Shown: piece by piece, positions 43,188-49,490 of the stretch
Layout: each line of letters opens with the position of its first letter
How positions within the stretch are numbered: position 1 is the stretch's first letter
Assembly (NCBI RefSeq): GCF_016887565.1
Contig: NZ_CP069396.1
Location: forward strand, 11,514,001-11,578,000
From: Archangium violaceum
Lineage (GTDB): Bacteria; Myxococcota; Myxococcia; Myxococcales; Myxococcaceae
Length of the DNA stretch: 64,000 nt
Direction: 5' to 3'
Program-made: the position numbers and the translations under genes
Notes under the pieces: generated by a model
What the model was told of the DNA's origin: nothing
Seen by the model: the letters and a program-made list of their open reading frames with translations, nothing else
Database searches by the model: none

Positions 43188-43225
43188 GCCCCAAGCCTGC
43201 CACAACAATCCGGGCTCCATCGACT

Positions 43226-43278
43226 TGACTACAACCGTAGTCAGGGCTTACCTTGCTCCTTGACGACACTTGTAGTCA
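43226..43278 (+). promoter_or_regulatory. Probable BlaI/MecI operator and promoter
   Basis: TGACTAC-aacc-GTAGTCA (43226-43243) is a perfect inverted repeat, and a further GTAGTCA half-site lies at 43272-43278, just before the regulator start. The repeat overlaps a TTGACT that could be the -35 box; the -10 is weak. TACA/TGTA-type dyads are the known target of BlaI-family repressors. Confidence 0.7.
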
Positions 43279-43283
43279 CGCGG

Positions 43284-43679
43284 ATGGGCCGAATGAAGAA
43301 GCCGGTGGGAGACCAGGAGTTGGTGGTGCTGCGCTGGGTGGCCGAGCACGGCCCCGTCACCGTGGGTGAGGTGGCGGAGCGGTTCGGCGAGCCACAAGGC
43401 CTGGCGCGCTCCACCATCCTCACGGTGATGGAGCGGTTGAGGAGCAAGGGGCACCTGACGCGGCGCAAGGTGGAGGGCGTCTACCAATACAGCTCCAGCG
43501 TGCCGCTGGCGGAGCTGCTGCGGGGCGTGGTGGGGGACTTCGTGAAGAAGTCGCTGGCGGGCTCGCTGTCGCCCTTCGCCACGTGGCTGTCCCAGGCCGA
43601 CGAGGTGAGTGACGACGAGCTGCGCCAGTTGGAGGAGGCCGTTGCCCGGCTCAAGTCGAAGAAGGAGGGCGAGGAATGA
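43284..43679 (+). CDS. BlaI/MecI/CopY-family transcriptional repressor
   Basis: 131 residues. Winged-helix domain: DQELVVLRWVAEHGPVTVGEVAERF, then LARSTILTVMERLRSKGHLTRRKVEGVYQYS, followed by a helical dimer segment (ELLRGVVGDFVKKSL). Family members hold down their own operon until a partner protease cleaves them. The stop overlaps the M56 gene by four bases (43676-43679), the usual repressor/sensor arrangement. Confidence 0.93.
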   Translation: MGRMKKPVGDQELVVLRWVAEHGPVTVGEVAERFGEPQGLARSTILTVMERLRSKGHLTRRKVEGVYQYSSSVPLAELLRGVVGDFVKKSLAGSLSPFATWLSQADEVSDDELRQLEEAVARLKSKKEGEE

Positions 43680-45595
43680 GCGCCATGGACATGCACGCGG
43701 TGGCGGAGCAGGGACTCGGGGTGCTGTGGCGGGTGACGTGGCAGGGGGCGCTGTGGGCGCTCGTGGTGTGGGCCCTCACGCGGGCGCTGCCGAGGCTGCC
43801 CTCGTCCGCGCGGGCCGCGATGTGGTGGCTCGTGGGGCTCAAGTGCCTGGTGAGTCTGTGCGCGCCGGGCACGGTGCGCCTGCCACTGCTGCCAGCGCCC
43901 GAAGCGCCCCAGGCCGTCGCGGTGAAGGTGGACACGGCTCCGGCCCATGCGGGCACCGCGCTCAGGGTGGAGAAGAAGCACGGTGAGGCCTCGCTCGTGG
44001 CAACCCCGCCGGAGCGCACAGGCACGTGGATGCGCCAGGCGGTGCTGGGCGTGCTGCTCGCGTGGCTCGGCGGCCTCGCCTGGCAGGGGTGGGCGCTGCT
44101 CCGGAGCCTCGCGCAGTTGCGCCGCATCCGGCGCGAGGCACGGCCGCTCGAGGACGCCACGCTCCACCAGGCCGCGGCGACGCTCGGTCGGGAGCTGGGC
44201 CTCGCGCGCATCCCCCGGTTGCGCGTCTCCGAGCACGCCCCGAGTCCCCTGGCCATCGGCCTGCTGCGCCCCGAGGTCATCCTGCCGCGCGCGGCGCTGG
44301 AGAAGCTGTCCCCGCTGGAGCAGCGCATGGCGCTGGCGCACGAGCTGGCCCACGTGCGGCGCGGGGACCTGTGGCTCGGCTGGGTGCCGGCGCTCGCTCA
44401 GGCGTTGTTCTTCTTCCACCCCCTCGTCCGCCGGGCCTGCCGCGAGTACGCGCTCGCCCGCGAGGAGGCCTGCGATGCCGCCGCGCTCCAGGCCACCGGG
44501 GCCGAGCCCCACGAGTACGGGCGGCTCCTGCTCGTCTTTGGTATCGCCCGCGCTCCGGCTGCCGCGGCGATGCCCGGTGCCTCATCACATCTCGCAGCCC
44601 TCAAACGGAGAATCGCCATGCTGGAACACGCAAGTACCGACTCGATGCGGCGCCACCACTGGATTCGCTGGGCCCTGGGCGGCCTCGCGCTGGTGGCACT
44701 CGTCCCCTTCCAGGTGGTGGCCCGCGAGCCAGCGGCCCCCACGCCCCCAGTGCCCCAGGCGCCGGCGGTGACCCCACAGCCCTCGCAGCCCCTCGTGCCC
44801 GCCGCCGTCCTGCCCCTGGTGAAGCCCCCCGCCCCCGCGCCTCGGGTCGCCGTGGCGCAGTCCGCTGCTCCCGCGAGGCCTCCCGCGCCTCCGAGTGCGC
44901 CCGCCGAGGACGATGACGGCAGGTACTCCTACGTCCTCCTGCGCTCCTCGGACAACGCGACGATGTCCGGTTCGCCGCACGACCTGAAGGTGGCTCGCAG
45001 CCTGGCGGGCGGAGGGAACCAGCCCCTGCTCTACGTGCGCCGCGATGATGGCCAGGAGTTCATCATCCGGGACGCGGCGACCCTGCGGACCTTCGAGGAC
45101 ACCTTCAAGAGCGTGAGGGAGCTCGACGAGCAGCAGAGGGCGCTGGGCGAGCAACTGAAGGCGCTGGGCGAGAAGCAGGGCGAGTTCGGCGGGAAACAGG
45201 GGGAGCTCGGCGGGAAGATGGGGGAGATTGGCGAGAAGATGGGAGTGCTGGGACGCAAGCAGGCCCGGCTCGCCCACCAGGCGGCCCTCCTGGAGATGGA
45301 CGACGGGGAGGAGACGCCGGACATCAAGCGCCAGCGGGAGCAGTTCGCGCGCGAGCAGAAGGAGCTGCAGCAGCAGATGGAGGAGCTCGAGCGGCAGATG
45401 GAGCCCCTCAACGAGCAGATGGAGGCCTTCAGCCGGGAGATGGAGAAGTACAGCGAGCCCATGGAGAAGCTCGGCGAGCAGATGGAGAAGCTCGGCGAGC
45501 AGATGGAGGCGGCGAGCCGGGAGGCCGAGAAGAAGGCCCAGGCGCTGCTGGATGACGCGGTGCGGAAGGGGCTGGCCGAACCCGTGAAGCGCTGA
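43676..45595 (+). CDS. BlaR1/MecR1-like M56 metallopeptidase with heptad-repeat tail
   Basis: 639 residues. Membrane helices near residues 15-35, 45-65 and 120-145; the zinc site HELAH (222-226) with Glu264 in EEACD; a fourth helix (WIRWALGGLALVALVPFQV) near residue 330. This half matches the BlaR1/MecR1 signalling peptidase that cleaves the BlaI-type repressor encoded just upstream. In place of a penicillin-binding sensor it has a Pro-rich linker and a C-terminal coiled coil: seven exact heptads of LGEKQG-type, then nine exact heptads of the form xLxxQME. The signal is therefore not a beta-lactam bound in the usual way. Confidence 0.88.
   Translation: MSAMDMHAVAEQGLGVLWRVTWQGALWALVVWALTRALPRLPSSARAAMWWLVGLKCLVSLCAPGTVRLPLLPAPEAPQAVAVKVDTAPAHAGTALRVEKKHGEASLVATPPERTGTWMRQAVLGVLLAWLGGLAWQGWALLRSLAQLRRIRREARPLEDATLHQAAATLGRELGLARIPRLRVSEHAPSPLAIGLLRPEVILPRAALEKLSPLEQRMALAHELAHVRRGDLWLGWVPALAQALFFFHPLVRRACREYALAREEACDAAALQATGAEPHEYGRLLLVFGIARAPAAAAMPGASSHLAALKRRIAMLEHASTDSMRRHHWIRWALGGLALVALVPFQVVAREPAAPTPPVPQAPAVTPQPSQPLVPAAVLPLVKPPAPAPRVAVAQSAAPARPPAPPSAPAEDDDGRYSYVLLRSSDNATMSGSPHDLKVARSLAGGGNQPLLYVRRDDGQEFIIRDAATLRTFEDTFKSVRELDEQQRALGEQLKALGEKQGEFGGKQGELGGKMGEIGEKMGVLGRKQARLAHQAALLEMDDGEETPDIKRQREQFAREQKELQQQMEELERQMEPLNEQMEAFSREMEKYSEPMEKLGEQMEKLGEQMEAASREAEKKAQALLDDAVRKGLAEPVKR
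45140..45529 (+). repeat. 21-bp tandem repeats coding for heptads
   Basis: Two blocks in the M56 gene, 45140-45286 (seven units) and 45341-45529 (nine units), each unit 21 bases. The second block repeats phrases such as KLGEQME. Such arrays change copy number easily. Confidence 0.8.
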
Positions 45596-47435: not shown

Positions 47436-49490
47436 TCACTTGTCCTTGCCACGCCCCTTGGGCTTCTTGTCGGTGCCGGGCGTGCCCAGGTCCGCGGTGA
47501 AGGCCAGCGCCTGGATCTTCCGGTCCACCTCCTCCTGTGCCTCGCGCTTCTCGCGCTCCACGCTCTCCAGCTCGCGGGCAATGGCCTCCAGCCGGTCCTC
47601 CTGCTCGCTCAGCTTCGTCACGAAGCGCTCGGAGAGCTCCCGCTGCGAGGCCCCGCTCTTCAGCGAGTCGATGTTCGCCCGGATGCGCTCCTGGTCCTTG
47701 AAGAGCTTCGTCCGCTCGTCGTTCAGCTTCCGCTCCTGCCTGTCCAGTGCCACCATGCGGTCGCGGATGGCGACGACCTCGCGCACGCCCTGGGCCACCC
47801 GCTCGTCGATGTAGCCCGACTCGAGGAAGAAGCGCACCTCCTCCAGCCCCGTGTTCGAGAAGTACCAGGTGCGCTGTCCCGTCGTGCGCTCGGTGATGGT
47901 GAGCTCCTCGCTGGCCGAGGCCCCCAGCTCCAGCTTGAAGCGCCAGAAGTTGTCCGTCGTCTCGGCGGGCTCCGGCGAGTCCTTCAGCTCCCAGCCCGTG
48001 CGCGGGTGCTCCAGGTACAGCGTCTGCGCCCGCTTCGCCTTGTTGCGCACCGTGTAGAGCGTGCGCCGCAGGTGGTAGAACTCCACCAGCAGCACCCCGT
48101 GGCTCACCACCGCGCGGAACACCGGCCCCTCCTCCGTCCGGTCCTCCTGCGACACCACGCACCCCAGCTCCACCGCGTACGGCACGAAGCGCTTGTCGTC
48201 CGGCTTCATCGTGTCGAGCATCGCCTCGCCCACGTAGGTGTCCCCCTCCGTCACCGTCACCGGCCCGCCCTCCAGCGTCAGCCCCGTGGTGTTCTTCAGC
48301 TCGATGCACGCCATGGGGTTCTTCTCGCGCGTGGCGCGGTTGTAGAGCAGCACCCGCCTGCCCTCGAAGGGCCGGTGCAGGATGGGCACCAGCGCGCTCT
48401 GGTTGCGGTGCACCGTCACCGGATGGTCCACCCGGTACTCGAAGAGGTCCCCCACCTCCTTCGTCAGCGTCTTCACCGCCGCGCTGCGCTCCATGGCCTC
48501 GCGCCGGGCTGGCCCTCCCCGTCCTCCCACCGCCCCGAAGGTCTTCATCATGGGCGCGGCGGCCATCCCGGGCGCGGGCGCCGGGGGCATGGGCGGTTCC
48601 ATCGCCATGTCCGCCGACACCTCGGCCAACACCTCCTCCTCCATCCCCCCGTACCCCTCCTCGGGGATGACGGGCGCCGCGGCCGCCTCGGTGCGCACCT
48701 CCACCACCGGCCGCCGCATGTAGCGCGGGTTGTACAGGTCGTGCACGAAGGACACCGGCAGCCCCGCGATGAGCGCCAGGTCCACGTCCACCCAGTCCTC
48801 GTCCCCCGTGTTGTCCACCACCGCCCAGCCCTGCAGCAGCGGCGGGCGCTCGGCCTCCAGGAGGATGCGGTAGCTCGTCTTCCACACCGGCGCTTCCAGC
48901 ACGTACGAGACGAACAGCTCCCGATCCCCCTCCCCCGCGGTGAGCACCGACAGCCGCTTGGTGTCCTTCTTGTACGAGGACAGCACCGTGGCCAGGTAGA
49001 ACTCGAGGTCCTTGCGCACCGTGTCGTCCAGGAACGTCAGCTCCGCCACGTCCAGCAGGTCGAAGCTGCGCAGCGACGCGCCCACCAGCAGCGTCAGGAA
49101 GGGCCGGTGCACCGCCGCCTTGCCCTCGACCACCGGCAGGGACTCCAGCCCCACGATGACCCCCTCCACCTGCTGCTCCTTACCCACCCGCACGCGCACC
49201 CGCGCGCCCTTGATCTGCCCCAGCAGCGCGGTGAGGCTGCCCGACTCCGGTATCCGGATGGTGGCCTCCTGCAGCAGCTGCTCCAGCGGCTTGGTGGAGT
49301 CGTAGCTCACCGCCGACACCGAGCCGCCCGACAGGTCCAGCACCGTCATCGACTTCAGGACGTCGTTCATGTCCCGCGCCTTGAAGTCGAAGTGGAGCGT
49401 GTCGCTGCCGCTCACCCTCCCCCGGCGCTCGAAATAGCCGACTCCATGCTTGTAGAGGACGACGCGGCGGATGGGCAGGGAGGGAGGCAT
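47436..49490 (-). CDS. DUF4139 domain protein
   Basis: 684 residues without signal peptide. Starts with a beta strand repeat (IRRVVLYKHGVGYFERRG) common to this group, followed by the central domain with WKTSYRILL and DNTGDEDWVDVDLAL, the DUF4139 signature. Residues about 260-310 are low-complexity with many Met/Pro/Glu. The C-terminal 120 residues are a coiled coil (RKLNDERTKLFKDQERIRAN). The function is unknown; eukaryotic and bacterial relatives have been linked to mucoidy but not to any enzyme. Confidence 0.82.
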   Translation of the reverse strand: MPPSLPIRRVVLYKHGVGYFERRGRVSGSDTLHFDFKARDMNDVLKSMTVLDLSGGSVSAVSYDSTKPLEQLLQEATIRIPESGSLTALLGQIKGARVRVRVGKEQQVEGVIVGLESLPVVEGKAAVHRPFLTLLVGASLRSFDLLDVAELTFLDDTVRKDLEFYLATVLSSYKKDTKRLSVLTAGEGDRELFVSYVLEAPVWKTSYRILLEAERPPLLQGWAVVDNTGDEDWVDVDLALIAGLPVSFVHDLYNPRYMRRPVVEVRTEAAAAPVIPEEGYGGMEEEVLAEVSADMAMEPPMPPAPAPGMAAAPMMKTFGAVGGRGGPARREAMERSAAVKTLTKEVGDLFEYRVDHPVTVHRNQSALVPILHRPFEGRRVLLYNRATREKNPMACIELKNTTGLTLEGGPVTVTEGDTYVGEAMLDTMKPDDKRFVPYAVELGCVVSQEDRTEEGPVFRAVVSHGVLLVEFYHLRRTLYTVRNKAKRAQTLYLEHPRTGWELKDSPEPAETTDNFWRFKLELGASASEELTITERTTGQRTWYFSNTGLEEVRFFLESGYIDERVAQGVREVVAIRDRMVALDRQERKLNDERTKLFKDQERIRANIDSLKSGASQRELSERFVTKLSEQEDRLEAIARELESVEREKREAQEEVDRKIQALAFTADLGTPGTDKKPKGRGKDK

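Follow-up and report, generated by a model that had tools for sequence, protein, structure and literature searches.

A BlaI-type repressor and M56 protease gene pair of Archangium violaceum with an apparently undescribed module at the beta-lactam sensor position

A repressor gene of the BlaI type and a membrane protease gene of the M56 (BlaR1) type were analyzed within a 64-kb stretch of the Archangium violaceum genome, referred to throughout as the window. These two genes probably form an autoregulated pair in which the protease carries a non-beta-lactam periplasmic module and is driven by a signal from the envelope. The module is conserved and apparently undescribed, and a literature search on BlaR1/BlaI in Myxococcus or myxobacteria, or on coiled-coil M56 proteins, returned nothing on it. 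Coordinates of all features are provided in Table 1.

Table 1. Features of the gene pair, its upstream region and the C-terminal module (window coordinates; aa, residues of the protease)
Feature	Position	Strand	Basis
Promoter-like pair TTGACT (43225-43230), 18-bp spacer, TACCTT (43249-43254)	43225..43254	+	
Predicted operator O1, TGACTACAACCGTAGTCA, overlapping the -35	43226..43243	.	Fits CopY/BlaI-type consensus RNYKACANNYGTMRNY
Predicted operator O2, TGACGACACTTGTAGTCA, just 3' of the -10	43261..43278	.	Fits consensus RNYKACANNYGTMRNY
BlaI/Penicillinase_R-type repressor	43293..43679	+	Start MKKPVG chosen by conservation of the N-terminus in relatives
M56 BlaR1-type membrane protease with C-terminal hairpin module (predicted)	43676..45595	+	639-aa ORF
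M56 protease domain, aa 17-316	43724..44623	+	PF05569, E 3e-43
HELAH zinc motif, aa 222-226	44339..44353	+	Sequence
EEACD (ExxxD), aa 263-267	44462..44476	+	Sequence
Last transmembrane helix, aa 330-348	44663..44719	+	Hydropathy
Pro/Ala-rich linker, aa 350-411, leading into the C-terminal part	44723..44908	+	Sequence
Small alpha/beta domain, aa 418-476	44927..45103	+	AlphaFold2 and conservation; no Pfam/NCBIfam family
Arm 1 helix, aa 478-541, holding array 1	45107..45298	+	AlphaFold2
Hairpin turn, aa 542-547	45299..45316	+	AlphaFold2
Arm 2 helix, aa 548-630, holding array 2	45317..45565	+	AlphaFold2
Conserved tail KKAQALLDDAVRKGLAEPVKR, aa 619-639; predicted short strand, aa 634-636	45530..45592	+	Alignment and AlphaFold2

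The protease passed the curated threshold of Peptidase_M56 (PF05569; 148.5 bits, cut-off 31), and the repressor passed that of Penicillinase_R (PF03965; E 4.8e-24, 85.4 bits, cut-off 22.6). With the HELAH and EEACD motifs, these matches bear out the view of an earlier note on this DNA that an M56 zinc site and a BlaI-type partner gene are present. EEACD corresponds to E242xxxD246 of BlaR1 (PMC9834060, available text), and the arginine pair that follows the zinc site is R311-R312. The HExxH...ExxxD signature and the following arginine pair were found in 48/48 distinct M56-fused module sequences. The repressor gene comes first and overlaps the protease gene by 4 bp; an alternative upstream TTG start at 43260, beside or within O2, gives a longer ORF of 139 aa (43260-43679). 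A motif search found a BlaI-type gene at 29 of 32 scanned loci, where one locus (L034) is a duplicate of another (L007) and the three negative loci (L066, L087, L088) have little upstream DNA. Both genes were syntenic in all 15 regions examined, and the genes flanking them in the window were common only to three same-genus regions among those 15.

The earlier note had also proposed that a beta-lactam sensor is missing, and this was upheld by Pfam, in which neither the whole protease nor the module alone matched the class-D-beta-lactamase-like penicillin-binding domain. The module likewise had no sequence match in the PDB to the penicillin-binding fold, and the NCBIfam model blaR1_generic matched the protease part only (85.9 bits, cut-off 400). 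None of the seven scanned neighboring genes encoded a beta-lactamase or a penicillin-binding protein. The same note had considered that the repeats might be unique to this strain or that relatives might have a classical sensor in this position. Neither was found: repeats occur in relatives, and a transpeptidase domain was present in none of the nine M56 proteins scanned with Pfam. The own genome has eight PF00905 matches and, among the matches listed (3 of 8), none lies at an M56 gene.

Other repeats were seen at the sensor position of myxobacterial M56 proteins, namely HEAT-like repeats in L020, L021 and L033 (backed by Pfam for L020, by eye for the rest) and TPR-like repeats in L022 and L032 (backed by Pfam for L022, by eye for the other). 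Because other relatives have HEAT or TPR repeats there, the tail of M56 proteins can be regarded as a position that accommodates various modules. In the own genome, the second M56 protein (L002 832-3195; G000:C1, about 12.67 Mb) has a different repeat tail, with units of ~26 residues (ALGVxxxYvxeLrxxGydkLpvddLvqlr). Elsewhere in the window, a 684-aa protein (47436-49490) gave only a sub-threshold match to DUF4139 and, toward its C-terminal end, weak matches of the coiled-coil type.

The C-terminus of the protease was originally described as seven plus nine exact, uninterrupted heptads coded by 21-base repeats. The count and the coding were reproduced: array 1 comprises seven heptads (aa 483-531, LGxxQxx), array 2 comprises nine (aa 553-615, QMExLGE), and Tandem Repeats Finder reported 21-base arrays at 45115-45237 (5.9 copies, 75% matches) and 45360-45509 (7.1 copies, 76% matches). 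Residue identity at a lag of seven across aa 483-622 was 54/133, whereas 20,000 shuffles averaged 13.6 and never exceeded 29. The heptads are exact in spacing but not in sequence, since the copies differ (neighboring copies agree at 55-84% of bases, by array and codon position). They are uninterrupted within each array, but a turn lies between the arrays, and the description had left out both the alpha/beta domain before them and the conserved tail after them.

Anchor-to-anchor length in the window clade (own genus and g11; nine sequences) was 148, 155, 162 or 176, and all nine lengths equal 1 modulo 7; outside that clade, the heptad register is looser. Repeat copy number varies between congeners and arm length varies inside one genus. 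Covariation of arm lengths, examined as a check of the predicted hairpin, was weak evidence for it: over 59 related sequences (4 skipped) the Spearman coefficient was 0.49, with crude arm borders. The kept register at changing length fits arms that act as a stalk under selection for register but not for exact length, and length variation at a kept register mildly disfavors a strict ruler. Metal sensing by the methionine heptads of array 2 was ruled out, as relatives (e.g., L011, L013, L015) have glutamine there.

AlphaFold2 modeled the module as strand-strand-helix-strand-strand-helix, a 64-residue helix, a six-residue turn, an 83-residue helix and a short strand, and so agreed with the earlier expectation that the heptads are helical. 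Mean pLDDT was 86.5 and pTM only 0.57, with a shallow alignment of three sequences (the window, L034 and L035), two of them close, as input; coiled coils are easily over-predicted. When modeled alone, the alpha/beta domain took the same fold (mean pLDDT 80.8). The two arrays are thus predicted to be the arms of one antiparallel hairpin, and the predicted module consists of the alpha/beta domain, arm 1, the turn, the antiparallel arm 2 and the conserved tail, with the chain ending beside its start.

The alpha/beta domain and a tail ending GLAEPVKR are retained in each of the 14 myxobacterial modules aligned. Invariant or near-invariant residues of the domain in these 14 modules are the G of MSGS, D, A, R, IRD and T, and its residues are better conserved than those of the arms. 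The earlier proposal that heptads alone take the place of the sensor was therefore not retained: the best conserved part is the alpha/beta domain, and the heptads are better read as its stalk.

No Pfam or NCBIfam family matched the alpha/beta domain above cut-off (TIM21 was sub-threshold at 16.2 bits, cut-off 24.1), and the Pfam and NCBIfam matches listed for module members were mostly to helical and coiled-coil families. There was also no clear PDB match to this domain by sequence or by fold, the best Foldseek E value being 0.67 and the best VIA matches being ATP-grasp proteins (Z 5.6, rmsd 3.7, 72 aligned). Fold matches of the whole module were generic coiled coils. The arms resemble the antiparallel hairpins of the LSD1 tower and PI3K p85 iSH2 in shape only (VIA Z 11.1, rmsd 4.7, 123 aligned), a common arrangement that does not imply homology. 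A role as a defense system was rejected, as PADLOC matches were weak and those of the M56 protein sit in its helical part.

A profile of the alpha/beta domain gave hits in 64 of 195 Myxococcota genomes and in 9 of 396 from the phylum of a Terriglobia genome (G195), which we take to be Acidobacteriota. Two queries against 72,556 plasmid records gave no module match; among viral contigs, ten stretches fit a pattern and none encoded a relative. The 63 distinct module sequences collected comprised 48 fused to M56, 9 stand-alone and 6 short, the short ones being due to a contig edge or a frame break (L008/L042). In this last copy (G002), the module is out of frame with the protease, owing either to a frame break or to misassembly.

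A hydrophobic stretch precedes the domain in 9/9 stand-alone proteins (one of which, L069, lost its 3' end to a contig edge). Since the stand-alone versions all have a hydrophobic leader, in agreement with the location of the BlaR1 sensor, the sequences argue for a periplasmic module. Stand-alone proteins such as L096 and L093 keep the alpha/beta domain with ordinary, non-LGxxQ helices, so the module can exist without exact heptads. Several stand-alone module genes occur in tandem pairs (L067, L068, L091). By eye and from translation, tandem stand-alone secreted copies at L067 3336-4828 and L068 85-1288 adjoin a gene for a sensor-kinase/response-regulator fusion.

Upstream of the repressor gene, both predicted operators fit RNYKACANNYGTMRNY, the published consensus of CopY-type repressors; the BlaI/MecI operator has the same TACA/TGTA core (PMC7253601, available text). 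O1 and O2 are the only matches to this palindromic pattern in the window (read on the + strand). Across 29 upstream regions (leaving out L034, the duplicate of L007), paired dyads 33-35 bp apart flank the promoter in 28, the exception being the Acidobacteriota relative L035, and TTGAC and TACCTT-like elements 17-18 bp apart were found in 26. Two full consensus matches were present in 10 of these regions, one in 18 and none in 1. From this conservation, we infer that the dyads at the own promoter are BlaI-type operators bound by the repressor.

When whole genomes were searched with at most one mismatch, 16 of 20 had operator sites solely at the own promoter, and the reversed control pattern gave 2 sites across all 20. 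One of the remaining genomes (G125) has one extra single site elsewhere, and three of one genus (G110, G114 and G119) have an extra operator pair before a short ORF for a predicted membrane protein. These extra pairs (L137 4811-4860, L138 4931-4981, L139 5187-5236) occur in 3/3 searched genomes of that genus, and the short ORF, predicted to encode a single-pass membrane protein, is a candidate second target of the repressor. A wider regulon in the own genome was rejected: with at most two mismatches, the six sites found were no more than the control gave (nine), which leaves O1 and O2 as the only credible sites there.

In Staphylococcus, a related switch induces resistance to penicillin. The pair shares with BlaR1/MecR1 and BlaI/MecI of Staphylococcus aureus and Bacillus licheniformis an M56 gluzincin with HExxH...ExxxD and an arginine pair, a C-terminal domain placed outside the cytoplasm after the last transmembrane helix, and an adjacent BlaI-type repressor, with two predicted operators of the TACA/TGTA type. 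It differs in that an alpha/beta domain and a predicted helical hairpin replace the class-D-beta-lactamase-like sensor, in that no beta-lactamase or penicillin-binding protein target gene is adjacent, and in that strong operators were found almost only at the own promoter. CopY/TcrY belong to the same repressor superfamily (NCBIfam TIGR02698, E 1.7e-7, far below cut-off), and the predicted operators in the window match the consensus of the CopY family. A C-terminal Cys-X-Cys metal site is present in CopY (PMC7253601, available text), whereas the translation of 43260-43679 contains no cysteine and so lacks this motif; the 139-aa repressor also differs in having a protease partner.

In BlaR1, a signal from outside the cytoplasm leads the zinc site to cleave BlaI (available texts of PMC9834060 and PMC7593790). 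Because this chassis retains the residues required, cleavage of the repressor in response to a signal is, by analogy, the most likely mode of action, and the signal must act on a module other than a penicillin-binding domain. Under this scheme, a dimer of the BlaI-type protein would bind the two operators flanking the -10 of its own promoter and repress the operon, as operator conservation suggests. An envelope signal would alter the state of the periplasmic module, and the change would be relayed by the proline-rich linker and the last transmembrane helix to the M56 zinc site in the cytoplasm. The site would then cleave the repressor, as in BlaR1, and the derepressed operon would yield more protease. 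The heptad arms probably serve as a stalk that maintains the shape of the module and its spacing, and they may also take part in dimerization.

Since the operator is nearly absent from other promoters, such a switch leaves control beyond its own operon without explanation. A closed loop is an alternative that we regard as rather doubtful: the repressor would have essentially one target, its own operon, and the M56 protease would itself be the output, cutting further cytoplasmic substrates and not serving as a resistance switch, with the sensor module also spread as free secreted proteins. The earlier note suggested sensing by coiled-coil pairing or extension. Under this idea the heptad arms themselves would be the detector, pairing with a partner helix or extending as a ruler from the inner membrane to the cell wall or outer membrane. 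Two long modeled helices (64 and 83 residues) do follow the proline-rich linker, and window-clade lengths keep their register while length changes, so that coiled-coil extension is a possible signal. The arms are nevertheless an unlikely detector, given that alpha/beta residues are conserved better, that the arms of some stand-alone proteins are short and lack LGxxQ heptads and that a fixed-distance ruler would not freely allow length variation inside a genus.

Direct detection of beta-lactams or cell-wall fragments through a new fold, in the manner of BlaR1, would suit the shared M56/BlaI chassis and the placement of the module after the last transmembrane helix; with no sequence match to the penicillin-binding fold in Pfam or the PDB, and with neither a beta-lactamase nor a penicillin-binding protein encoded by the seven scanned neighbors, we consider it quite improbable. 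The 21-base repeats, with a copy number that varies between congeners, could also be read as neutral tandem-repeat expansion in a free, functionless C-terminus. This reading has very little to recommend it against arrays that have a conserved domain on one side and a conserved tail on the other, an architecture that is the same across genera and in another phylum, and window-clade length changes that preserve the heptad register. The autoregulated BlaI/M56 pair with a periplasmic module driven by an envelope signal is thus the reading that we prefer.

Strong operators lie almost only at the own promoter, and one reporter therefore suffices to test the pair. The module is an uncharted sensor candidate common to at least two phyla. 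The known role of BlaR1 is that of a beta-lactam receptor, and an unrelated module on the same chassis would make this chassis a general switch from outside to inside the cell.
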